DNA of 64,000 nt, taken from Aureococcus anophagefferens. Taxonomy: Eukaryota > Sar > Pelagophyceae > Pelagomonadales > Pelagomonadaceae. This document shows, piece after piece, positions 5,372-62,727 of this stretch; position 1 is the first letter of the stretch; each line of letters starts with the position of its first letter. A model generated the notes under the pieces. The model made no database searches. It worked only from the letters and a program-made list of their open reading frames with translations, and was not told the origin of the DNA. The DNA is taken from positions 1,915,699 to 1,979,698 of the forward strand of contig NW_008705566.1 in NCBI RefSeq assembly GCF_000186865.1. Direction: 5' to 3'. Position numbers and translations under genes: made by a program.

Positions 5372-5829
5372 GCGCGCCGCGGCGCCGCCGCGGGCCCATG
5401 CCCCGCGGCGAGCCGACGGAGGCGCCCGCCGCCGCGGGCCCATGCCCCGCGGCGAGCCGGAGGGGGCGCGTCGGACGGCGCCGCGGGCCCATGCCCCGCG
5501 GCGAGCCGCAGACGCGCCCCCTCCGGCTCGCCGCGGGGCATGGGCCCGCGGCGGCGGGCGCCTCCGTCGGCTCGCCGCGGGGCATGGGCCCGCGGCGGCG
5601 CCGCGGCGCGCCTACTTCTTGCTCTTGCACTCGGACGCCGGCGCATTGCACTGGCCCCCGGACCACTTGCAGCCCGCCTTCTTCTGCGCCTTGCAGCTGG
5701 ACTTGTCGGGGATGACGGCGCAGTCGGTCGTGGCCGTGGCGCCGATCCACTTGCAGGTCTCCTGCGAGCCGCACAGGATCGAGCTCTTGAGCGTGGAGCA
5801 CGCGTCCTCCTTTTTCTTCGACTCCTTGC
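5154..5829. repeat. Perfect inverted repeat, 319-bp arms, 38-bp loop, abutting an N gap
   Basis: Arm 1 is 5154-5472 and arm 2 is 5511-5829; position x pairs with 10983 minus x. I checked the 3' UTR part, the stop codon region and the last bases before the gap and found no mismatch. Arm 1 contains the last about 70 codons and stop of the Cys-rich gene, so the minus strand of arm 2 repeats that C terminus. Inside are repeated GC-rich units containing GGGCCCATGCCCCGCGGCGA. Because arm 2 ends exactly at the gap, its true length is unknown. A chimeric or fold-back assembly is the simplest explanation. Confidence 0.9.
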
Positions 5830-5879
5830 NNNNNNNNNNNNNNNNNNNNNNNNNNNNNNNNNNNNNNNNNNNNNNNNNN
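5830..5879. other. Assembly gap of 50 N
   Basis: Fifty consecutive N. The round number suggests a placeholder, not a measured size. Confidence 0.99.
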
Positions 5880-6082
5880 CCCCCCCCCCCCCCCCCACCC
5901 CCCCTCTGAGAGATATGTACCCCCGGGGGGGTCCCGACGCCGCGTTCAGCGCGGCGTCGCTGCCCCGCGCCGACGGCCTCGCCAAGCCGCCGCGGCGCCC
6001 CACCGCGGGCCGAGCCGAACTCGCGCCCGCCACCGGATCGAGGTAACACTACGATCGGAAAAAAGCGCGCGTTCGCCGGCGG
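5880..6082. other. Low-complexity poly-C and intergenic DNA after the gap
   Basis: Seventeen C, one A, then seven C directly follow the gap; homopolymer is a likely reason assembly broke here. No gene is seen in the rest of the interval. Confidence 0.7.
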
Positions 6083-7251
6083 TCAGTCGGCCTTGGCGCC
6101 GCGGAAGGCGCGGGCGATCGACGCGGGCGTGGGGTAGATGAGCGGCACGGCGGCCTCGTACTTGAGGAAGTTGCGGACGCGTTTCGTGTCGCTGGCCATG
6201 CGCGCGTCGATGAGCGGCAGCGTCGCGAGCGTGTCCGGGACGTGGTTCAGGAGGAAGCCGAGGCAGCAGGGGTCCCACGCGCCGCGGTGCGCGAGCGCGA
6301 GCCCCGCGAAGCCGACCCAGAAGAGCTGCTCGCCGAGGTGGTTCGGGTGGCGCGACGCGCGCCAGAGGCCCGCGTCGAGGACGTCGCCGGGCTTGCGCGT
6401 GGCCGCGAAGGCCGCGAGGGCCGCGTCGGCGCGGCGCGCGACCTCGAGGCCGAGGACCGCGAGGGCCGCGGCGGCCGCGTCGGCCGCGCCGAGGCCCGCG
6501 GCGGCCGGCGGCGCGCCCGCGCGGGGCAGGAAGAGCGCCCGGAGCGGGAGCGTGAGGCCGAGGAGCATGCCCTGCTGGGACCCGTAGGCCACGGGCAGGG
6601 ACAGGGGGTACCAGAGCCAGCCGAGCTCCGCGCGGAGGTCGGCCTGGGCGGGAACCGAGTGCGACATTCCCAACTTCAAAGGCTCCGATCTCGGTCGCTT
6701 TCCACTCGTTTCGGCTCATGCTTGGACGAGCGATCATCTCTCGGAGCGCTCTCGACGCGTGGATCCTTTCGCTGGACCAATCGCGCGCGGCACCATCACA
6801 TTGAAGCGACGTTGAATCCCGCGCGGACGTCGGCGAAGCGCCAGTCCTCGCGCGCGCCCGGCGTGTAGCGCTCGCGGCGCCAGTAGTTGCCGCTCAGCCG
6901 CAGGCTCCAGGCGCCGAGGAGCGCCGCCGCCAGGAGCTGGCGCGGCCCGGCGGCGCACGCGAGCGGGTGGCTCGCGTAGTAGCCGTAGACGTAGAGCGGG
7001 ATGAGCGTCCAGTACGGGTCGATGAGCCACGTCGACCGCGCCGCGAGCGAGTGGACCCAGAAGAGCAGGCAGAACGTGGGCCAGTAGACGAGGTTGAGGG
7101 CCACGACGGGCCAGTCCGCGTAGGCCTCGCAGGCCGCCGCGCGCAACGTCTCCGGCGCCGCGGCCGCCGCGCACGCGCCGCGCAGCGCGTAGACGGACAC
7201 CGCGAAGGGCGCGCCGCCGAGGGCGACGGCGGCCCACCTCAGCGCGGCCAT
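6083..7251 (-). CDS. DUF1295 / steroid 5-alpha-reductase C-terminal-like membrane protein
   Basis: Two exons, 7251-6835 and 6643-6083 (stop), joined in phase 0 to give 325 residues. The product is a multi-pass membrane protein: N-terminal hydrophobic helices, the motif WLIDPYWTLIPL, then LSGNYWRRERYTPGAREDWR, and after the intron GWLWYPLSLPVAYGSQQG and HPNHLGEQLFW. The HPNHLGE segment and the RRxRY...EDWR pattern are typical of DUF1295 proteins, relatives of steroid 5-alpha-reductases and isoprenylcysteine methyltransferases, which use NADPH or SAM on lipid substrates. The substrate cannot be told here. The intron (6644-6834) is a family-A introner with GC-AG ends. A small ORF ends only 5 bp upstream of this ATG on the same strand. 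Confidence 0.82.
6644..6826 (-). mobile_element. Introner element family A, copy 1 (antisense to host gene's usual orientation)
   Basis: The element lies between imperfect 8-bp target duplications (plus strand AGGTCGGC at 6636-6643, ACGTCGGC at 6827-6834). Its ends are short inverted repeats (CTGGGCGGGA / TCCCGCGCGG). On the gene strand the intron begins with GC of the duplicated target and ends with CCCAG from the element. The inner sequence, starting with CATTCCCAACTTCAAAGGCT, is shared with the copies at 8205, 30617 and 31312. This copy is inverted relative to its gene compared with the other three, yet still gives a clean open frame when removed. Confidence 0.9.
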
Positions 7252-7541: not shown

Positions 7542-9904
7542 ATGGCGGCCCTCTGGCTGCGGCTGGCGGCCCTCCTGGGCCTGGGCGACCTCCTGGCGAC
7601 GTCCCGGGGCAAGCGCTACGCCGACGTGTCCTACGACCGCATGTACGACGACATCCAGGCGCTGGCCAAAGCCCACCCGCGCTTCGTGCGCGTCTTCCTC
7701 GCGTCGGACGCCTACCGGGGCCAGTACGGCGCGGGCGTCGCGGGGACCTGCGGGTCGAAGCACCGGAGCTGCGAGCACGTCGTCGTCGTCGTGTCCGACT
7801 TTGGGAGCCTGCCCGCGGCGGCGCGCGGCGCGGGCACGGCCGCGGGCGAGCGCGGCGGGGGCGCGGCGCCGCGGTCGAACGCGAGCGCGCGCGCGGAGGT
7901 CTTCCTGAGCGGCGCGCTCCACGGCGACGAGCGCGTCGGCCCGCTGTCGACCTTCGCGTTCCTGCGGCTCCTCGCCGTCGGCGCGTCCTGCGCGGCCGAC
8001 GGCGTCATCGACCCGGAGCGGTGCGCGGCGGCGGGCCCCGGCGAGCGCGCGAGCCTCGGCGCGGGCGCGGCGGGCGCCGCGCGGCTCCGCTGGCTCGGTC
8101 TCCTGGCGCGGAAGCGGGTCCTCTACGCCATGCCCATGACGAACCCCTGGGGCTTCGCGCACGCGAGCCGGTCCGAGGTCAAGGTCGACACGAACCGCGA
8201 CTTCTAGGGCAGCAAAAGAGAGCGAAATTCCCAACTTCAAAGGCTCCGATCTCTGCCGTTTTCCACTCGTTTCGGCTGACTTTTGGACGAGCGATCATCT
8301 CTCGGAACAGTCTCGAAGCGTGGATGCTTTTTCCGGAACGCGCGCGCGCGGAACACTCACGTTGAAGCGACGTTGAATCACCCTTTTGCTGCCCAGGCGA
8401 CTTCGCGATCGACACGGCGCCGTCCGCGTGCGCCAAGTCCGCGACGGGCCGCGTCGTCAACGAGCTCTTCCGGCGCCACGTCTTCCAGGTCGGCGTGACC
8501 TTCCACGGCGGCATGGAGGCCATCGCCTACGAGTGGGGCGCGCCGAGCCACAACCGGCCGCCGCCGCCGGGCGCCGCGGGCGTCGCGGCGCCCAGGGTCC
8601 GCGTGCCCCGCGGGGCCCACGGCGCCCGCGGGCGGCGGCTCCTGCGGGGCCCGGGCGACGACGACCACGCGCGGGACCTCCGGGCCGCCGCGGACGCGGA
8701 CATCTCGCCCGACGACGCGTCGCAACGGGCCGTCGCCGCGGCCATGGCCGCCGTCGGCGGCGCCTTCGACGGGGGCAAGCCCTACCGCCACAGCCGCATG
8801 AACTCCATCGTCTACCCCGTCCACGGCGGCATGGAGGACTGGGCCTACGCGGCCTCGTGGGACAAGCCGCTCGCCGTCCCCGGCGGCTGCGCCGCGCCGG
8901 GCTACGACCGGGCGCGGACCGCGTCCTACGACGACGCGTCGAACCGCTGCTTCATGGTGCTGGTCGAGACGTCCAACGCCAAGGCGGGCCCGCCGCGGCT
9001 CTTCGGCGGCGACGGCGCGCTCTTCGACCCGGCCGCCGCGGGCGACGACGGCGGCCACGTGCCGCGCAACGTGCGGCTCGCCCTGCTGGCTCTGGACGTC
9101 GCCGAGCCCTATGCGTATTGGACCGAGGGCCACGCGCGCGCGCCGGACCCGAACCTCGCCTGCGGCGACGGCGGCCGCGGCGACGCGCCGGACGACGTCG
9201 TCGCGACGGCCGCGCGCCGCGGCGCCGCGGAGCTCGTCGCGGCCTTCGCCGTCGGCGGCGCGCTGGCCGTCGACGGCCAGGAGACGTTCTGGGGCTGCTA
9301 CGACGCCGCCGCGGCCCGAGCGGCGACGTGCCGCGGCGCCGAGGCGCTCGCGGCGTCGGCGGCGGGCCGCGGCGCCGACGCGGCGCCGTCGCCCGCGCGC
9401 TGGGGCCTCGGCGACGTCGCCGACGCGCTCGGCGCCAACGCCGGCGCCGTGCGACTTGCGCGCCTCGACCTCGCCGCCGCGCGCGCGAAATGCGGCGACC
9501 GCGGCAAGGCCTGGCTCGTGGCGGGCGTCGCCGTCGACGGCGGCTGGGGCGCGGCGCCGGAGCGGGCCCAGCCGCCGGGCCTGCCGCCGCAGACGCACCT
9601 CGCGCGCGCGCGCACGGACGCGTCCTGGCGCAAGCTCGGCCACGACGGCCGCGCCGTCCTCGGGCGAAGGCTCTGGTTCGCGCCGCCGCTCGTCGTCGAC
9701 CTCGCCGGCCGCGACGAGAAGCCCCGGCGCCGGCCCCTGTCGCTGAGCGCCTTCCCGACGTCAAAGCCCGCGGAGCCCGCCGCCGACGCCGCGCTCCGCG
9801 GCCAGTTCGCCGCCGCCGCGGCCGGCGTCGCCGTCCTCTCCGTCGCCGTCGCCGCGCTCCGCCGCCGGAAGCGCGCGGCCGCGCGAAGCCCGTCGTCGCC
9901 CTAG
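7542..9904 (+). CDS. M14-family zinc carboxypeptidase, membrane-anchored
   Basis: Two exons, 7542-8196 and 8397-9904, give 720 residues. A hydrophobic N terminus (MAALWLRLAALLGLG) looks like a signal peptide. The metal motif HxxE is in GALHGDERVGP (H127, E130); the substrate-binding Asn-Arg pair is NRDF, restored exactly at the splice junction; the third zinc ligand is in VTFHGGMEAIAYEWG. M14 enzymes remove C-terminal residues from peptides. Near the C terminus a hydrophobic helix (AAAAAGVAVLSVAVAALRRRK) followed by basic residues suggests a type I membrane protein with an extracellular or luminal enzyme. I did not locate the catalytic Glu with certainty in the long second exon. The gene ends 31 bp from the convergent MFS gene. 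Confidence 0.88.
8205..8396 (+). mobile_element. Introner element family A, copy 2, with perfect 8-bp target duplication
   Basis: GCGACTTC at 8197-8204 is repeated at 8397-8404. Between them lies a 192-bp element with inverted ends TAGGGCAGCAAAAG and CTTTTGCTGCCCAG (13 of 14 match). The intron is 8197-8396: its 5' GC is the first two bases of the target copy, and its 3' AG is the last two bases of the element. Removing it restores the exact pre-insertion codons for the NRDF motif. This is the clearest copy in the window. Confidence 0.96.
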
Positions 9905-14469: not shown

Positions 14470-15675
14470 TTAAGCCACGTCGACGGCCGCGACGTAGTGG
14501 CACTCCGAGTGGAAGCCGACCCAGATCTCGGAGACGGCGGCGCGGTCGTCCGCGGGCTCGATGCGGAGCTCGAAGTTGTCCGCGTGCGTCGTGACGAGGA
14601 GCACGCGGCAGCGGAACGCGTCGGCGCAGGCCTGGAGCGTGTTCTGGTCGCCCCAGGAGCGGTCGTCGGCGAGCGCGCGGAGGTAGGCTTCGACGTCGTC
14701 GCCGACGTCGAGCGTGCACAAATCGCCGTCCGCGTTGGACGCGTAGACCTCGCAGTCGTGGAACGGCGGGCGCCGCGCGTCGAGCGCGGCGAGCGCCTGG
14801 CGCCGCACGAGCGCGTGGTGGCTCTCCGTGCCCCAGAGGCCGTGGGCGACGGCGCGGAACTGGCACGCGCCGTCGCCTCTCACGTCGAAGATGCGCTTGC
14901 CGTGCGCCGCGAGGCGCGCCGCGAGCAGGTCCCGGCCCGTGCGGAGCGTCGCCACTCCCGGCGGGTCCGGCAGGCGCCGCCGCCGCCGCCGCGCGCCGCC
15001 GAAGGCGCGGAACCCGAGCCGCAGGATCTCGCCGCCGCCGCAGCCCGCGGCGTCGCGCCGCCGGTCGCGCCGCCGGCGCCGGTCCTCGGCCGGCGCCCCC
15101 GCCGCGCGCGGCGCGTCGTCCCCGAGCGACGCGGCGTAGGGGTCCGCGGCGCGCCGCGCGGCGTCGAGGCGCCGCGCGTCGCGCGCGTAGTCGCCGAGGA
15201 CGCGCTCGAGCGCGCGCGTGCAGTCGCGGCCGCCGCCGTCGCTCGCGAGCGCGGCGGCGACGGCCTCGAGCGTCCGCGCGTTGAGCGCCGCGAGGCCCCG
15301 GCTCCGGTCCGCCGCGGCGTCCTCCGCGCGGAACCGCCGGCGCCGCTGCTCGGCCTCCTTGGACGCCTCGTAGGCCGCGGACTCGGCCTTGGCCGCCGCG
15401 AGCTCGTCCGCGTCCGTCGTCCGCCGGACGGCCGCCGCGCGCGCGGCCTCGGCGCGCGACGCGGCGATGGCCTCTTGCAGCTCGCGCGGGTCCGTCGTCT
15501 GCCGCACCGCGGCGCGCCGCGCGACGCGCGGCGCGTCCGCGTCGCGCGGCGCGTCCGCGTGCACGACGGTGCCGAGCTCGACGCTGGACGACTCCTCGGA
15601 GACCTCGCTCTCCGAGACCTCGTCGAAGCCCAGCGCCTCGACATCTTCGGGCAGCAGGTCGAGCACGCGAACCAT
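14470..15675 (-). CDS. OTU-family deubiquitinase with UIM-like motifs
   Basis: The 401-residue protein has an acidic N terminus, two ubiquitin-interacting-motif-like helices (ELQEAIAASRAEAAR near residue 65 and AYEASKEAEQ near residue 100), a long Arg/Ala-rich linker, and a C-terminal OTU domain. The OTU signature is FDVRGDGACQFRAVAHGLWG, with catalytic Asp and Cys near residue 268; RSWGDQNTLQACADAF is the middle motif, and SECHYVAA near the C terminus supplies the catalytic His. OTU enzymes are cysteine proteases that cleave ubiquitin chains. The UIM-like helices would give chain recognition; that is inference from spacing and the A-xxx-S pattern. No introns are needed. Confidence 0.9.
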   Translation of the reverse strand: MVRVLDLLPEDVEALGFDEVSESEVSEESSSVELGTVVHADAPRDADAPRVARRAAVRQTTDPRELQEAIAASRAEAARAAAVRRTTDADELAAAKAESAAYEASKEAEQRRRRFRAEDAAADRSRGLAALNARTLEAVAAALASDGGGRDCTRALERVLGDYARDARRLDAARRAADPYAASLGDDAPRAAGAPAEDRRRRRDRRRDAAGCGGGEILRLGFRAFGGARRRRRRLPDPPGVATLRTGRDLLAARLAAHGKRIFDVRGDGACQFRAVAHGLWGTESHHALVRRQALAALDARRPPFHDCEVYASNADGDLCTLDVGDDVEAYLRALADDRSWGDQNTLQACADAFRCRVLLVTTHADNFELRIEPADDRAAVSEIWVGFHSECHYVAAVDVA

Positions 15676-15828
15676 GGCTCGTGGTCGTCACAGCGCGGCG
15701 GCAAATAGCACTAAATCCCAGCAGAGCGTTCCATTGCGCTTCCCCAAAATTGCCACAAGAAAATGGGCATGATGTCAATTGCATGATGTGCTACTAGAGC
15801 TGAATCATCGGCGCCAGCGAGACGAGAG

Positions 15829-16807
15829 ATGCTGCCCGAGTCGCCCGTCGCCGACGAGGACGACGCGCTCATGAGCGGCAGCCCGAAGTCGACGCTGGAG
15901 ACGACGGCGAGCGGCGCCGACGCCGCGACGCCCGTGCCGCGCACCTTCTTCTCGCTGCTGGCCGTCTACGTGGCGCCGCTGAGCTGGGCCCTGCTCAGGG
16001 AGGGCGTGTACACGGCGGACCGCCAGGACCTGCCGGCCTACCTGTCGCCCTACGCGACGGTCGAGGGCCTCGTCGCCTGGCTCGGTGTCAACGTCGCGCT
16101 CTACGGCGCGCAGCGCGCCGTCGCCGCGAGGCGCGGCTGGAAGATGAACGAGAAGCACGCCGCGACGCACAAGGAGGACCTGCTGCGCATGTGCGTGCTG
16201 AGCGGGCTGCTCTTCCTCGCCGGCCGCGTCGGCGCGCGCGTCGCGGCGGACCCCTTTGTCTTCTTCGCGTGGCTCGCGTTCTTCACCTTCGGCTACGGCG
16301 TCCTCTTCGAGCTCCTGCGCCACGCGAACATCGAGCTCACGCGCGACTGCGTGCGCGCGGCGCCGGCGTCCCGCGAAAACCCGTTTCCTCCTTCCCCCGG
16401 CGGACGGGGCCCTCGGCGCAGGCAACGTGCACACGCTCGCGCTCATGGCGTTCACGGCGTCCATCGTCGGCGGCCTGCTGGCGAACCACCTCGCGCTCGC
16501 CGCCGCGCGGAACGCGACCCGGGCGCCGGGCGACGCGCCCTTCTCCGCGGCCCAGGCGCTCGGCCTCGCGGCGTTCGTCGTCGGCGGGCACGGGCTGCTC
16601 GTCGTGGCCCCCGGGGACACGGCCGCGCACTTCCACCACTGGTACACGGGCTTCGTCGGCTCCTGCTTCTGCGTCTTCGACTCCGATGTGTCCCAGATCG
16701 CCCACGCCATGCTCCTCGGCATCTACCTCCACGGCGCCGCGCTCTTCGGCGTCGAGCGGTGCTTCTACCCGGCGGACCACGGCCACGACGCGAGGCTGCC
16801 CCTCTAA
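15829..16807 (+). CDS. Unknown multi-pass membrane protein with HHWY motif; one small intron
   Basis: The first exon (MLPESPVADEDDALMSG) and the second are in different frames, and a GC-AG intron at 16373-16421 (49 bp, pyrimidine-rich before the AG) joins them in phase 1 to give 309 residues. An upstream GC in the same region (the GCGCGG after GTGC) would also keep frame, so the exact donor is uncertain. The protein has about six hydrophobic helices and the motifs AHFHHWYTGFVGS and IAHAMLLGIYLHGAALFGVE. Similar His-His-Trp-Tyr membrane proteins seem widespread in stramenopiles, but I know no function. The His-rich motif between helices could bind metal or haem; that is speculation. Confidence 0.7.
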
Positions 16808-21110: not shown

Positions 21111-21634
21111 CTAGAGCACGCCGAGGTCGAGCGTCTCCTGCTGGACGCCGCCCGTAGCGAGGAACAGCTTGGACATGAACGTGGCCTCGCGCCCCTTCTC
21201 CTTGGCCCTACGAAGCATTTTCGTTGTTTCCCGGTCAAAAACCTCTCGAAAGTCGTCACGGCTGCAGGACGCTGAGTTGCGCACGACTGGGCCTTGAGCG
21301 TCAACTTCTTGCGGCTCAAGCTCTTCTTCTTGCCGCCCGCGCCCCGCTGGGCCGGCGCCGCGCCACGCTTGAACTTCCGCATGTTCTCCTGCGACGCGGG
21401 GAGGAATGTTTGCAAGGGATTTGAGGGTTGTGGCGCGCGCGCATCCAGAGTCTCGAGGACACTGATCCTGACCTGGTTGCGCTGACGCTTCTCCTTCTTC
21501 GTGTTCCGCCGGCACGCCTCGAGCGCGACGAGTGAGTCCGTCGTCTGAGCGACGAGCGACGAGGGCATGTGCTTGGGCGCGACGAACGCGCTCACCGACG
21601 CCGCGGCGAGGATGAGGTACGCGACAGCCTTCAT
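21111..21634 (-). CDS. Small basic plastid-targeted protein, three exons
   Basis: Exons 21634-21473, 21388-21285 and 21207-21111 give 120 residues. The N terminus, MKAVAYLILAAASVSAFVAP, is a textbook heterokont bipartite plastid presequence: signal peptide then an ASAFAP-like site with Phe at the cleavage point. The mature part is strongly basic (RRNTKKEKRQRNQENMRKFK, GGKKKSLSRKKLTLK), suggesting RNA or ribosome binding in the stroma; I cannot assign it to a known ribosomal protein. Intron 1 (84 bp, GT-AG) is in frame and would be readable if retained; the retained peptide is unlike its surroundings. Intron 2 (21208-21284) contains a family-B introner copy. Confidence 0.72.
21208..21274 (-). 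mobile_element. Introner element family B, copy 2, degraded
   Basis: 67 bp, gene strand beginning CAGCGTCCTGCAGCCGTGAC and ending CTTCGTAG. Unlike the other copies, the flanks (GCGCAACT and GGCCAAGG) do not form a target duplication, and the intron donor (GTGCGC at 21284) lies 10 bp upstream of the element. This may be an older copy whose donor has shifted. Confidence 0.75.
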
Positions 21635-30369: not shown

Positions 30370-32465
30370 CTACTTCATCTGGAGGATGCCCGAGGCGATG
30401 AGCTTCTCGATCTTGGCCTTCATGAGCGGGTCCTGGAGCGCGCGCTGGCCGGCCATCTGGTCGCCGCCGGAGAGGTTGTTGATGACGTCGCGGACCATGG
30501 GGTCCTGGAGGATGGCCTGGATCTCCGGGTCGGCCATGGCGTGCTGCGCGCGCTCCTGGTCGCTGCCCGACGCGGAGTTGATCGCGTGCGTCGTCTTCGC
30601 GAGGCCCTGCTTGCACCTGGGCAGGAAAAGAGAGATTCAAGTTCGCTTCAACATGAGCGTTCCGCGCGCGCGCGTCCCGGAAGAAAGCATCCATGCTTCG
30701 AGACCGTTCCGAGAGATGATCGCTGGTCCAAAAATCAGCCGAAACGAGTGGGAAACGGCCGAGATAGGAGCCTTTGAAGTTGGGAATTTCGCTCTCTTTT
30801 CCTGCCCTGCCCTGCACGCGGCGTTCGCGGGCTCGAGGGCCAGGCCCTTCTTGTACGACTCCAGGGCCTTGTGGTACTCCTTCATGAGGAACTCGAGGTC
30901 GCCCTTCTTCGCGATGGCCTTGACGTAGGACGGGTCCAGATCGAGCGCCTTCTCGCACGCCTGCTTCGCCGCCGCGAAGTTGCCGAGCTTCGTGAGCGCC
31001 GCGGCGAGGTTGTTGTTGTAGGCCGGGTTCTTCGGGTCGCGCTTGATGGCCTCCTCGTAGTGGGGGATGGACTCGGCGAACTTGCCCTCGCGGAACTTGA
31101 CGTTGCCCTCCTCCTTGGCCGCCAAAGCCTTCTCGGGGTCGACGTACGCGGCCGTCTTCGCCTTCTTGATGTCCATCTCGAGGTTCTTGATGAGGCGCTC
31201 CGTGGCCTTGTCGCGGTACTCGACCTGGGCCGACGCGAAGTACTCGAGGCCCCCCGGGAGGTCGCCCTGCTTGACGCGGGCCTTGCCCATGCGGACGTAG
31301 ATCTTGTGCACCTGGGCGGGACAAGGGTGATTCAACGTCGCTTCAACGCGAGTGTTCCGCGCGCGCGCGTTACGGGAAAAGCATCCACGCTTCGAGACCG
31401 TTCCAAGAGATGATCGCTCGTCCAAAAATCAGCCGAAACGAGTGGAAAATGGCCGAGATCGGAGCCTTTGAAGTTGGGAATGTCGCTCTCTTGTCCTGCC
31501 CTGTTGTGCACGAGCTCGTAGTCCGCGCGGTGGTCGCGGCCGACGCGGATGGCCTCCGCGCCCTCGGCGACGACGGCGTCGTAGTCCTTCTTCTCGAAGT
31601 GGACGGCGCACTTGTTGTTCCGGTACGTGACGTCCGTCGGGTCCGCGGCGATCGCGGCGTCGTAGTGCTCGAGCGCGTCGTCGAACTGCTTGGCCTTGTA
31701 GCACGCGTTGCCCTTGGCCTTGTGGGCCAGGGCGACCTGCTTCGCCTCGAAGGCCTGCTGCTCCTCGGGCGTGCGCTCGACCTCGGGCTCGGGCTCGGGC
31801 GCGGGCGCGGGCGCGGGCGGCGGGCTCGGCGCGGGCGCGGCCGCGGACGCGCCCGCGGCCGGGTCGGCGGGGTCGAACTGGTCCGGCGTCGAGATGTTGA
31901 TGCCCAGCGCGAAGCTCAGCACCTCCTGCATGTCGGGGTCCTGGAACATGGTCGACATCATCTGCTGCGGGTTCGCCTGGAGCATGCGGAGCTTCATCAT
32001 GAAATTTTCGTCGCCGAGCTTGTGGCGGAGCGTCGGGTGCTGCGCGAGCCTGGGGATGAGGTCCGGGCCCAGCGCCGCGCCGAAGGGGTTGTTCGCCGCC
32101 GACTGGGCCGCGCCCTTGGCCTTGTTCACGTCGACGACGCCCTGCTTGAGCGCGGCGTCGCCCGGCGCGACGGCGAGGCCCGCCTGGTACGCGGCGTCGG
32201 CCTCGTCGTACTTCTTCATGGCGTGCAGCGCCGCGCCCTTGCGCGAGTAGCCCTTGGCCCACGTCGGGCTCAGCTTGATGCACATGTCCGCGTCGGCCAG
32301 CGCCTTGGCCGGGTCGCCCTTGCTCATGAAGGCCGCCGCGCGGTTGCTGTAGTAGGTGTGCTGCGTGCCGTCGAGGCCGATGGCCGTCGTGTAGTGGGCG
32401 ATGGCGCCGTCGAAGTCCTTCGCCTGGAGGCACTTGTTGCCCGCGGCCTTCGCCTCGTCGGCCAT
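30370..32465 (-). CDS. STI1: Hsp70-Hsp90 organising protein Hop/STI1
   Basis: Three exons (32465-31512, 31311-30818, 30616-30370) give 564 residues, the family's size. TPR1 is at about 3-115 (MADEAKAAGNKCLQAKDFDG), DP1 at about 125-190 (NPFGAALGPDLIPRLAQHPT, MMSTMFQDPDMQEVL), TPR2A at about 250-365, TPR2B at about 385-490 (EEGNVKFREGKFAESIPHYE) and the DP2 tail (DPEIQAILQDPMVRDVINNL ... GILQMK). It bridges Hsp70 and Hsp90 in the cytosol during client transfer. The Ala/Pro/Glu linker after DP1 replaces the charged linker of animals. Both introns are family-A introners with GT-AG ends. Divergent from the F-box/SET gene with 141 bp between. Confidence 0.95.
30617..30809 (-). mobile_element. Introner element family A, copy 3
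   Basis: Element of 193 bp with inverted ends CTGGGCAGGAAAAG and CTTTTCCTGCCCTG. Flanks GCTTGCAC (30609-30616) and CCCTGCAC (30810-30817) match at 6 of 8. The intron on the gene strand is 30817-30617, starting GTGCAG in the target copy and ending CCCAG in the element. Confidence 0.92.
31312..31503 (-). mobile_element. Introner element family A, copy 4, with perfect 8-bp target duplication
   Basis: TTGTGCAC at 31304-31311 is repeated at 31504-31511. The 192-bp element has ends CTGGGCGGGACAAG and CTTGTCCTGCCCTG. The intron (31511-31312 on the gene strand) begins GT in the duplicated target and ends CCCAG in the element, joining DYEL to VHKIYVRMG. High identity to copy 3 in the same gene suggests recent spread. 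Confidence 0.95.
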
Positions 32466-47948: not shown

Positions 47949-48583
47949 GGAGCCTCGTCTCCCCGCCCTCTCCTCCTTCCCCGCGAACCGCGCGCCTCGC
48001 CTTGCCCGCCCCTTCTTCTCAGGCTGGATGTACCGCCCCTCTTTTTGCTCTCTCGGCCCGCCCTGGCCACGTAATTGACTTCATAATTGGCCGCGTGTGC
48101 AAGATGCACCCGGCGTTGCACTGCACTTTCGCCCCACCGTGACTTTTGTGAGCCGCACAGCTCAGGAGGCCGGCAGTGAACCACCCCACGACACCAAGCA
48201 CCACTACCCTACCCACCCTGAGTCGCGACTTGCTCAAAATGAGTGGTCAAAACAGCTGCAACATGGGATCAACGAAGCCTGTGAACCACCCGTTCTGGCC
48301 GATCGGCAGCTGGAGGGCTGCTCGGCCATGACCTCCACACGGTCGAAATTTATGATCGAGCGTCAAAACCACCAGTTTGCTCAAGCTCGAGATCAAAACT
48401 GGTCGATAGAGCCAAAACAAGCATATTTCCGGTGGATTCGAGTGGTCTCCAGCGGCCCCAGGGGTACCACCCCCACCACCACCACCACTACCTCACCCCA
48501 TTCTCAGAGCACTCATCTCAGATCAGCATGACAGTGGTTAAGGTTGTTGCATACCTCTTGGCACAGCTGACAAAACCTTCGGG
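47949..48583. other. Intergenic, 635 bp, AT-richer, with CCA repeats
   Basis: Composition is clearly less GC-rich than the genes. A (CCA/ACC)n tract is near 48466-48492. There is no gene, tRNA or hairpin I can support. It contains the 5' flank of the Rieske gene and 3' flank of the small Cys-rich gene. Confidence 0.6.
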
Positions 48584-50405
48584 ATGATTATGGCGCCATT
48601 TTCCAAAGCTATTGCGGCTCTCGTCGCAACAACCTGGGCGTGGAGCCCTGCGCGGCGCGTCCCGCGCCTGCGTCTGCGCGCTGCCGCCGTCGAGGCGCCG
48701 ACGCCATCGGACGCGGCGTTCCTCGATGAACCGCACAAGGAGAGCATCGAGTGGCAGGACACGTGATGCGCAGCGTCCTGCGGCCTTGACGATGTTCGAG
48801 AGCTTTTGACCGGGGAAGCGACGACGAATCGTCACCGGCGCACTCGGTAGGTGGTACGCGGTCTGCTTCAGCGCCGAGCTCTCGTCCAAAAAACCCTTCA
48901 AGGCGTCGCTCTTCGAGACGCCCCTGGTGCTCTTCCGCGACGCCTTCGACGGCGGCGCGCGGTGCCTCGCGGACGAGTGCCCGCACCGCCTCGCGCCGCT
49001 CTCGGAGGGCCGGCTCGTCGACGCCGACGGGACGACGCGCGTCGAGTGCTCGTACCACGGCTGGCAGTTCGAGGGCAGGTGCGGCTCGTGCGCGCTCCTG
49101 CCGCAGCTCGACGAGGCGGCCCTCGCGGAGCGCAAGTACGAGAACTGGGGCGCGCGCTACGGCGCGCGGATGCACGCCGTCGCCGAGCGCCAGGGCATCG
49201 TCTTCGTCTGGCTCCGGGCCGGCGCGGCGCCGTCGTCGGAGCCGCCCGTCGTGCCCAACTTCGAGGAGGCGGGGTGGATCTACGAGCAGGACTACGCGCG
49301 CGACCTGCCCTACGACTACACGACCTTGGTCGAGAACGTCATCGACCCGAGCCACGTGCCCGTGTCCCACCACGGCACGTCGCAGGGGGACCGCGCGCTC
49401 GCGCGGCCCCTGCCGCTCACGGTCAAGGACCGCGGCTCCGGCGGGTCCGTCGCGGCGGCGCTGAGCCTCGCGGGCGAGGTCACGGTGCCGCTCCACGGGT
49501 CGTCGCGACTGGGCTTCGCGCGGACGACGGCGACGCAGACGGTGCGGTTCGAGGCGCCGAGCCGCCTGAGCTACGAGTTCGAGCTCCCGGGCGGGAAGCG
49601 CGCCATCGCGCTCTTCTACGCCGTGCCCGTCGCGCGGGGCAAGAGCCGCGTGCTCGTGCGCCGGGGCCGCGACTTCAACACGGAGGCCAAGATGACGCGC
49701 GCGGCGCTCGTCGCCAAGCACCTCGAGAACAACGTCGTCTTCGACCAGGACCTGGCCTTCCTCCGGGGCCAGGAGGAGCGGCTCCAGGCCTACAAGGCCG
49801 ACGGCCACGGCGGCGCGTGGCGCGACGAGTACGTCGTGCCGTCCAGCGCGGACCGCTTCGTCGTCAACTACCGGAAGAAGCTCGACGGCCTCGCGGCGAC
49901 GATGCCCTGGCGCACGGCGCCGGCGCCGCTGGCGCCCCTGCCCCGGCGCGAGCTCCTGGACCGCTACGAGCAGCACACCAAGGGCTGCGCGGTCTGCTCG
50001 TCGGCGCTCGCGGAGACGCGCGCGCTCGCCAAGGCCGCGCGCGGCGCGCGCAACGTCGCGGCCTTCGCCTTGCTCTGCCGCGCGGCGGCGGCGGGGCCCG
50101 CGGCGCCCTTCTCCCTCGCCGTCTCCGCGGCGGCCGCCGCCTTCGGCGGCGCGCTCCTCCGGAGCGACGTCGTCGGCCCGACCGTCGCCGCGGCGCCGAA
50201 CGCGCTCGCGGCGCCGCCCCTCGTCTTCGCCGCGCTCCACCTCGTCGCGGCGGCGGCGGGGCTCCCGCGCGTCGCGGGCGCGCTCGCGACCGCGTCCGCC
50301 GCGGCGCTCGCGGCGACCGCGGCGCTCGCGGCGCGCAAATTCGCCGCGCTCGAGGCCCGCTTCATCTACACCGAGGAGGCCAAGGCCCTCCAGCACGCGC
50401 CCTAG
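48584..50405 (+). CDS. PAO/TIC55-type Rieske non-haem iron oxygenase, plastid-targeted
   Basis: Exons 48584-48762 and 48851-50405 give 577 residues. The N terminus (MIMAPFSKAIAALVATTWAW then SPARR) looks like a heterokont plastid presequence with Trp at the cleavage site. The Rieske [2Fe-2S] ligands are CPHRLAPLSEG (about 103) and CSYHGWQFEGRCG (about 125). The mononuclear iron site is NVIDPSHVPVSHHG (about 221). Near residue 438 a CAVC (in HTKGCAVCSSAL) is the CxxC typical of the PAO/PTC52/TIC55 group, followed by two membrane helices. Relatives oxidise chlorophyll catabolites or carotenoid and protochlorophyllide-type substrates at plastid membranes. The exact substrate is unknown. The single intron is a family-B introner. 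Confidence 0.9.
48771..48850 (+). mobile_element. Introner element family B, copy 4
   Basis: GTGATGCG (48763-48770) and GTGGTACG (48851-48858) are target copies matching at 6 of 8. The 80-bp element begins CAGCGTCCTGCGG and ends CTCGGTAG. The intron 48763-48850 is GT-AG and 88 bp, the same length as copy 1; it joins EWQDT to WYAVCFSAE. Confidence 0.92.
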
Positions 50406-50483: not shown

Positions 50484-51416
50484 CTAGTGCGCGAAGCGGC
50501 AGGAGGTACCGCGCGTGCACTCGCCCTTCTGGAAGGCGTAGCAAACCCCGGCCTTGGCGCCGCCCTTGCCCTTGCCCTTGCCCTTGCCGCCGCCGCGGCC
50601 GCGGCCCTTGCCGCCGCCGCCGCGGCCGCCGCCGGCCGAGTGCTCGAACTTGCACGAGTCGCCGCGCGTGCACTCGCCGCGCTGGAAGGCGTAGCAGACG
50701 CCGAAGCCGCCCTTGCCGCGGCCGCCGCCGGCGCCGCGGCCGCCGCCGGAGGCGCCGCCGTGGTCGAACTTGCACGAGTCGCCGCGCGTGCACTCGCCGC
50801 GCTGGAACGCGTAGCACACGTTCGACCGCTCGCCGCCCTTGCCGCCCTTGCCGCCGCCCTTCTTGGCCGCGCGGCACTCCTTGCAGCGCACGGGCGTCCC
50901 GTCGAAGCCCTTCTCCTTGAAGAACTCCTGCTCGCCGGCCGTGAAGACGAACTTGGCCGAGCAGTCGCGGCACGCGACGACGACGTCGCCCTCCTCGCAC
51001 GCCGGGTCCTCCTCCTCCTCCTCCTCGCTGTCGGCGGCGTCTTCGGCGGCGCCGGCGGCGTCTTCGGCGGCGTCGGCGATGGCGGCGGCTTCTTTGGCCT
51101 CGGCGGCGTCATCCTCGTCGTCCTCGTCGTCCTCGTCGTCCTCGTCGTCCTCGTTGTCTTCCTCTTCAGCGCTCTCGTCGGCGTCCTCGCCTGCAACGCT
51201 GTCGTCGTCGGCGACGAAGCCCTCGTCGGCGACGTCGTCCTCGTCTTCAGCGGGCGCCCGTGCAGGCTCTGCTGCAGGTGCAGGCGCAGCCAGCTCCTCC
51301 TCGCTGTCCGACAGCACTTCGAGCGGCTTCTCCAGCACTTCGAGCTTCGGCGCTGGCTTCTCGATCTTCTGGCGCTTCACATTCGTGACCTTTTGCATCT
51401 TCTTCTGTTTCACCAT
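50484..51416 (-). CDS. Zinc-ribbon plus three CCCH-finger nucleic-acid-binding protein
   Basis: 310 residues. A basic start (MVKQKKMQKVTNVKRQK) is followed by about 90 residues of Glu/Asp with DED repeats. Then a zinc ribbon (VACRDCSAKFVFTAGEQEFF then RCKECRAAK; the CxDCxxxFxFTxGEQxF pattern) and three near-identical CCCH fingers (CYAFQRGECTRGDSCKFDH, at about 204, 247 and 290) separated by Gly/Lys/Arg linkers. CCCH fingers of this CYxFQxGxCxxGxxCxFxH type bind single-stranded RNA or act in mRNA processing. The near identity of the three fingers points to recent duplication. The DNA of the acidic part is a GTCCTC-like microsatellite. Confidence 0.88.
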   Translation of the reverse strand: MVKQKKMQKVTNVKRQKIEKPAPKLEVLEKPLEVLSDSEEELAAPAPAAEPARAPAEDEDDVADEGFVADDDSVAGEDADESAEEEDNEDDEDDEDDEDDEDDAAEAKEAAAIADAAEDAAGAAEDAADSEEEEEEDPACEEGDVVVACRDCSAKFVFTAGEQEFFKEKGFDGTPVRCKECRAAKKGGGKGGKGGERSNVCYAFQRGECTRGDSCKFDHGGASGGGRGAGGGRGKGGFGVCYAFQRGECTRGDSCKFEHSAGGGRGGGGKGRGRGGGKGKGKGKGGAKAGVCYAFQKGECTRGTSCRFAH

Positions 51417-51838
51417 GGTTTGGCAATGGCAGCGGCGATGAGGCAGTCCAGGCTTGACAATGGATTGTCGCCCGAAAAAACTTCGGGTCGTTGCAACTTG
51501 CAGCCTTGTTGCAGTCCTCAAGTGGTCGACGACTCGCCCGCGCCCGCCGCATAGCCGTGCGCTCGACGATAGGAGCGCGTGCATCATCAGATGCTCGCTC
51601 GAAAGAGCCCAGGGCGCGCGTCGCGCGACGCCGGCGGCCGCGCGACCGACTCGGAGCGGCCGTGGCCGCGCTCGCGGCCGCAACCGCGACGCATCATACA
51701 CGAGCCGCCGAACAACGAGCGCACGCCGCACCACGCGCTACCCCAGAGCACGAGAGAGAGAGAGAGCGTTCGAGAGAAACTAGGCTCGGCCGCGCGCGCG
51801 CCTCGGCGCGCGACCTCGGGTCGGCGGGGTCGGGATGC
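51417..51838. other. Intergenic, 422 bp
   Basis: Upstream of the CCCH gene and 3' flank of the eL6 gene. A GAGAGAGAGAGAG tract is near 51755. No gene is seen. Confidence 0.6.
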
Positions 51839-61794: not shown

Positions 61795-61984
61795 CTTCTC
61801 GAGTGCTCCGCTGATCTGTGAAGGTGATTCGAACGAGGCCCGGCTGTCCGGCGCACGCGACGCAGCCCTCAGAGCAGGGGGTCAAGGCCTAGGCCAAGGG
61901 GATCTTCAAGTATCCCCGTGCCTAGGCCCCCAGCTTTTGATTGAGGGAAAGATGCCAGATTCAACACTTGGGCGGGTATGGAGG

Positions 61985-62064
61985 GCTCATTTTGAGCGCT
62001 TTGCATCGCAGTCGTAGCAGCCATCTAGCTCATTTTGAGCGCTTTGAGTGCAGTCGTAGCAGCC
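61985..62064 (+). repeat. Direct duplication (about 38 bp) just upstream of the HhH gene
   Basis: GCTCATTTTGAGCGCTTTG followed by CAGTCGTAGCAGCC occurs at 61985-62022 and 62028-62064, 18 bp before the next ATG. Each copy contains a small palindrome (TCATTTTGAGCGC). An upstream promoter-like element is possible. The 61885-61935 region also holds inverted CCTAGGC boxes. Confidence 0.8.
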
Positions 62065-62081
62065 TCGCACCACCAAAACCA

Positions 62082-62727
62082 ATGGGCCTCATCGACGCCG
62101 TCGACGCCGGCGCCTGCGCCGCCCTGTGGCGCTCCGACGATCCGAAGCTCTACAGCGCGGCGCTCGCGTCCCTCGAAGCGAAGCAAGCGACGAAAAAGAC
62201 CAAGTACGGCGACCTCAACAAGCTCCACGCCAAGTGGGTCGCGCTCGAGAAGACGCTGCGCAAGAACGGCGAGCTCACCAAAAAAGAGCTCCAGACGGTC
62301 ATGTCGTTCAAGCTCACGCGCGGCAAGATGCGGCCGCTGATGCGCTTCGTCGACGCCGCGGACGACGGCGCCGTGCGCTCGGCGTCGCGCGCCGCGCTCC
62401 GCGCTCGCGGCGGCGTCATCGTCCGCGGACTGCGGCGCGGCCTTCGGGAGCATGTCCCTGCCCGGCGTCGGCGTCGCGACGGTGTCGGTGATCTTCGCCG
62501 CCGCGGACCCGCGCTTCGCGATCATGAGCGACGCCGCGCTCGAGGCCTGCTGCGGCGCGCCGGCGCACAAGAAGACTTATGGGTTGGACGAGTACCGCGC
62601 GCTGCTCGACGCGCTCGAGGCCAAGGCGGCAACACTCGGCCCTGACTGGTCGCCGCGGTCCGTGGAGATCGCGCTCTACGCCGCGAGCCTCGTCGCCGGC
62701 CCGAAGAAGCGGAAGCGCGAAGAGTAA
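62082..62727 (+). pseudogene. HhH-containing conserved protein split by an apparent one-base frameshift
   Basis: Frame 1 gives MGLIDAVDAGACAALWRSDD through LTRGKMRPLMRFVDAADDGA and SASRAALRA. Frame 2 continues DCGAAFGSMSLPGVGVATVS, FAIMSDAALEACCGAP to the stop. The LTRGKxRP block, the helix-hairpin-helix LPGVGVATVSVIFAA and SDEALE-type block form one conserved eukaryotic family of unknown role. Between the parts the frame shifts by one near 62398-62410 in a GC run. A GC-AG intron of 55 bp could be drawn but would delete the conserved residues before LPGVG, so a sequencing error or inactivating indel is the better reading. Confidence 0.65.

Follow-up and report, generated by a model that had tools for sequence, protein, structure and literature searches.

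A 192-bp transposon very probably formed the predicted intron of a carboxypeptidase gene in Aureococcus anophagefferens

Where does the predicted intron of an M14 zinc carboxypeptidase gene of Aureococcus anophagefferens come from, when the same eight nucleotides stand at both of its borders? The gene lies in a stretch of 64,000 nucleotides that was analysed as a whole (the window). Joining position 8196 to 8397 yields a single open frame of 720 codons, a 720-aa M14 carboxypeptidase in which the first 438 residues of the spliced protein match Pfam PF00246 (E 6.1e-11). The original prediction held that excision restores the codons for NRDF, and indeed the junction reads ...VDTN-R-DFAIDT..., with the insertion in phase 1. 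The unspliced reading frame ends there because the element's own tip and the first base of its arm make an in-frame TAG (8205-8207). A public protein from ENA (P0002) is 98% identical over the full length of the spliced protein and reads ...VDTNRDFAIDT... uninterrupted across the junction; its source could be either an empty allele or a spliced transcript. The best named match, JL720_9793 of A. anophagefferens (P0003; 92% identity in a best local alignment that spans 41% of the query), is a gene model without this junction that skips the stretch around the introner, perhaps a sign that a GC-AG intron was not recognised. The intron RNA folds no better than its shuffled versions, 58 of 200 of which do equally well or better (z -0.60).

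The borders of the predicted intron have the anatomy of a short DNA transposon (Table 1). The direct repeat GCGACTTC is present on both sides of the element, as had been claimed, and the arms GGGCAGCAAAAG and CTTTTGCTGCCC are complementary at 12 of 12 nt. The ends are also inverted as proposed, but the figure given for them, 13 of 14, does not hold: the outer 14 nt, TAGGGCAGCAAAAG against the reverse-complemented CTGGGCAGCAAAAG, match at 12 of 14 positions in the carboxypeptidase copy because its left tip is TA instead of the CA of most family members, and it is the common CA/CT form that would give 13 of 14. The proposed division of the splice sites is likewise what we find, with GC starting the left target copy and AG ending the element. 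We are confident that a 192-bp non-autonomous DNA transposon inserted in the coding sequence of the carboxypeptidase, thereby forming the predicted intron; the sequence evidence for this lies in the duplication, the arms, the dispersed family, the restoration of the frame and the strand agreement. The element, which we infer to be mobilised by a transposase acting in trans, would have inserted into the coding sequence with an 8-bp staggered cut. The GC that opens the left target copy would then serve as 5' splice site, and the pyrimidine-rich inverted-repeat arm followed by AG at the end of the element would provide the 3' splice site. Splicing of the transcript as drawn would take out one target copy and the element, and therefore leave the original coding sequence.

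Table 1. Features of the carboxypeptidase gene, of its element and of the other family members in the window
Feature	Position	Strand	Remarks
Eroded family relic	6646..6818	+	Aligns at 83% over 173 nt, without one of the arms
Exon 1, M14 zinc carboxypeptidase gene	7542..8196	+	From the spliced frame; ends in phase 1
Predicted intron, 200 nt, GC...AG	8197..8396	+	Frame restored by its removal
Target duplication GCGACTTC, left copy	8197..8204	+	First two bases GC = predicted 5' splice site
Introner element (short non-autonomous DNA transposon), 192 bp, forward body	8205..8396	+	Arms, duplication, family matches
5' tip TA	8205..8206	+	Mostly CA in the family, otherwise often CG
Left terminal inverted repeat arm GGGCAGCAAAAG	8207..8218	+	12 nt
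Right arm CTTTTGCTGCCC	8383..8394	+	Doubles as pyrimidine-rich stretch ahead of the acceptor
3' tip AG	8395..8396	+	Predicted 3' splice site, element-borne
Target duplication GCGACTTC, right copy	8397..8404	+	First bases of exon 2
Exon 2	8397..9904	+	From the spliced frame; stop codon 9902-9904
Third family copy	30617..30809	-	Arms GGGCAGGAAAAG at both ends; target duplication 6/8
Second full family copy	31312..31503	-	Perfect target duplication; tips CA..AG on the - strand

The element belongs to a large family, as emerged from the genome search that the original prediction had proposed as a check (49.05 Mb in 86 contigs). A pattern made of both 12-nt arms has 311 matches, and one made of exact 7-nt arms plus a body marker has 522 (242 + 280); the reversed-pattern control gave 0 for the first, and the control of the second also gave 0. 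The 522 matches correspond to slightly fewer copies for that pattern, since at least one copy was matched twice among the 100 matches listed, and the count leaves out copies with changed arms. A DNA similarity search was scored for the best 40 of 2068 first-look candidates. The original prediction had overlooked that the window holds two more full-length copies and one eroded relic, and that the body is reversed in some copies. The two further window copies lie about 500 bp apart on the same strand, and both arms of the third copy share one base change. The window, with about 69-75% GC around them, also contains low-GC islands (5691-5990, 15621-15880, 48121-48670, 51291-51550 and 61861-62110) whose lowest 160-nt stretch has 44-53% GC; they are possibly other introns or elements, but none yielded an 8-bp duplication with inverted arms. 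Across 12 low-GC stretches of the window outside the family copies, the search for such a duplication gave one weak pair, at 21156-21332.

We fetched 123 loci bearing copies: 8 from the similarity search, 15 from the arm pattern, 60 of the 78 copies with CT..TG tips in the orientation of the body, and 40 further CA..AG copies, every one of them from contigs C1 and C2. Ten of these loci repeated copies already counted, leaving 113, with a forward body in 53 and a reversed one in 60. These were found by similarity or by their tips, which makes an AG end a condition of entry and the set something other than a random sample of the genome. The two copies of the 8-bp target are identical in 98 of the 113, differ at one position in 10, at two in 4, and at six in 1. 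Only two pairs of copies have similar flanks, and the places of insertion are mostly unrelated. GC-AG introns are present in many eukaryotes, which would suit an ordinary old spliceosomal intron whose edges happen to be repeated; yet the hundreds of near-identical copies, the 113 fetched ones having inverted arms, usually a perfect 8-bp duplication and largely unrelated insertion sites, refute that origin, and we give it next to no credence.

If the carboxypeptidase element were instead a recent insertion that is left in the transcript, the gene would be broken in this strain, as the in-frame TAG predicts for an element that stays. Such insertions should occur on both strands. The coding sense of the flanks, with the AG tip taken as 3', was called exon by exon in the other 112 copies by a codon model whose training set was the M14 gene only. 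It calls both exons sense in 104 of the 112 and disagrees between the two in 8; in none does it call both antisense. The frames of the 104 both-sense copies meet exactly in 102 when one target copy is kept, where chance would give one third. When the flanks are joined, 112 of the 113 are in sense with the M14-only model and all 113 after retraining on the flanks, and 111 are free of stops. To escape the tip condition, we fetched 18 more copies outside the CA..AG and CT..TG lists, drawn from 99 distinct copies among the listed matches to the 522-match pattern and compared by eye. All 18 have AG at one end, and read with this AG as 3' their 5' tips are CG in 14 and GC, AA, CC and TC in one each; therefore, the 5' tip can vary, and the AG cannot. 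The body is reversed in two of them, and their spliced flanks are all in sense and stop-free, although L134 and L137 are so by a small margin. By joined flanks, all 131 copies examined (the 113 under the retrained model and the 18) are in sense. An unspliced insertion is hence very improbable. The 8 copies with exons called on opposite strands and the 2 whose frames do not join run counter to the transposon-made intron that we prefer, as do the gene model P0003, the folding of the intron RNA and the failure to find an autonomous partner. The proposal that transposition made the intron is borne out, as far as sequence comparison goes, by copies at mostly unrelated places, by their 8-bp duplications and by the 102 rejoined frames. 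CA and TA tips could be derived from CG by transitions (L126-L143 are the 18 copies, 14 of them with CG).

The donor of these predicted introns comes from the target. Its dinucleotide is GC in 62 of the 113 copies, GT in 49, GA in one and CC in one, so that 111 have GC or GT. Among the 98 copies with perfect duplications, the first target position is always G, and the second is C in 56%, T in 43% and A in 1%; the eighth is C in 49% and the base before the target is C in 59%, against a background of 36%. A palindromic preference of the transposase as the source of the GC/GT donor is weakly supported by these values. The donor rule has no counterpart at the far end of the target, and therefore splicing, more than such a preference, is probably the main filter behind it. 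Insertions are in phases 0, 1 and 2 in 51, 24 and 27 of 102 copies, where 39, 25 and 36% are expected from the GC and GT dinucleotides of the flanks, a bias that is not significant at the 5% level in these 102 copies (chi-square about 5.8 with 2 degrees of freedom, computed by hand).

Across the family the acceptor may stand at either end of the body, and splice polarity would be set by the tip that reads AG; the opposite tip is CA in most copies and CG or something else in a minority. In the orientation of the body, the genome has 356 copies with CA..AG tips and 78 with CT..TG, and no match genome-wide to CT..AG or CA..TG. Oriented so that AG comes last, the 434 copies all have the form CA-core-AG, and the core may run either way; tests of the coding strand cover the fetched copies among them. 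As tips are CA..AG or CT..TG without mixed forms, splice polarity resides in the tips, independently of the orientation of the body. Both arms can present TTTTGCTGCCC before the AG, and therefore a similar acceptor is available in either direction of the body.

How did the body come to be found in both directions? The 188-bp cores of L120 (forward; C2:2221325-2221516) and L082 (reversed; C15:615482-615673) are identical, while L120 has 9 differences from the nearest other fetched forward copy; L057 (reversed) has 2 differences from L013 (forward). The identity of the first pair suggests an inversion between the arms, though it could also result from a mistake in the assembly. The four bases inside the arms (marker arm/other arm) are GGTG/GGTG in 59 of the 113 copies, AGAG/GGTG in 36, AGAG/AGAG in 2, GGTG/AGAG in 1 and something else in 15. 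On the tree, the orientation of the body is strongly clustered (8 changes by parsimony; 200 shuffles averaged 37.7 and never fell below 25). A single clade of reversed copies is not rejected by the AU test when the identical pair is left free (p 0.43), so we claim only one well-marked flip, that of L120 and L082. Tentatively, we regard polarity as written in two bases at the tips and detachable from the 188-bp body. Recombination between arms or template switching would flip the body and leave the tips in place; either orientation would work as an intron, as the pyrimidine tract ahead of AG is the same from both arms; and the elements would survive almost only as sense-strand introns in coding exons. 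A comparable chance, a little short of even, goes to two subfamilies that descend from a symmetric ancestor and acquired the acceptor separately, each at a different tip, the body never having been inverted. Few changes would suffice for this (one base change in each subfamily from a CA..TG ancestor), the AU test tolerates one clade of reversed copies with one set of identical rows left free, and the forward and reversed groups differ in frequency at ten core positions. Against independent gain stand the lack of any CA..TG or CT..AG match, the forward core of L120 that equals a reversed one and is 9 differences away from its nearest forward relative among the fetched copies, and the occurrence of all four combinations of arm bases, two of them rare (2 and 1 copies), as if arms were exchanged.

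Which transposase could move these elements? Target duplications of 8 bp and a CAGGG-type tip are traits of the hAT and P-element families; the elements described here share the duplication length and, in most copies, the tip. The P-element RNase H domain (PF21787) has a single match in the genome, decayed and with three in-frame TAG (C25:178372-178818; the fragment of P-element type is L024 1501-2112, G000:C25:178372), and one 140-aa open stretch of it again matches PF21787 (E 5.5e-8). The 3.4-kb locus of this fragment, which opens with about 1 kb of N, has no match to the arms with up to 2 mismatches, 5 matches with 3 mismatches against 2.4 expected, and one imperfect inverted repeat unlike the arms of the element. 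The MULE (PF10551) and Merlin (PF12762) domains have no match in the genome, in a search that could miss intron-split domains and that matched 3 of 14 and 1 of 14 prokaryote controls, respectively. There were also no genome matches for the hAT dimerisation domain (PF05699) or for KDZ (PF18758), in searches that matched none of their controls either. Neither these domain searches nor the ends around the P-element fragment revealed an autonomous partner in the genome.

Introner elements of A. anophagefferens were reportedly described by Huff, Zilberman and Roy in 2016. The family has the marks of such elements: 1) many near-identical predicted introns at non-homologous places in one genome; 2) terminal inverted repeats with a target duplication of fixed length; 3) one splice site from the element (AG) and the other from the duplicated target (GC or GT); and 4) a coding sequence restored on removal, in the M14 gene as in 102 of 104 copies. 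That the class is already known in A. anophagefferens, as the original prediction stated, agrees with passages of papers citing Huff et al. One passage gives about 210 bp as the characteristic length of introners in this species (PMC9481584), close to the 200 nt of the predicted intron. According to another, the elements always have canonical splice motifs as well as direct and inverted repeats of constant length (PMC7789003), and direct repeats, terminal inverted repeats and splice motifs are found here too. As cited in a passage of PMC10228655, the elements of Huff et al. insert in both orientations, which our copies also do. The legend of Fig. 2B in Gozashti et al. 2022 (PMC9860276) presents an introner of Symbiodinium microadriaticum whose donor comes from the target duplication and whose acceptor is element-borne, the same split as here, with duplications of 4 bp instead of 8. 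That paper's example from Aureococcus sp. family 4 differs: its element supplies both splice sites and lengthens the transcript by 12 bp, whereas nothing is added here. We did not recognise the tip rule in the titles, abstract openings and passages retrieved by full-text searches, a comparison that covers literature other than the primary 2016 description. The tip rule and the presence of one identical core in both orientations may be the only new points.

The carboxypeptidase gene would provide a clean and fairly recent case of a transposon making a new intron without altering the protein, and the genome has several hundred comparable copies. The tip rule would allow a simple test of the requirements for turning a transposon into an intron: an AG that faces the coding direction and a target that starts with GC or GT.
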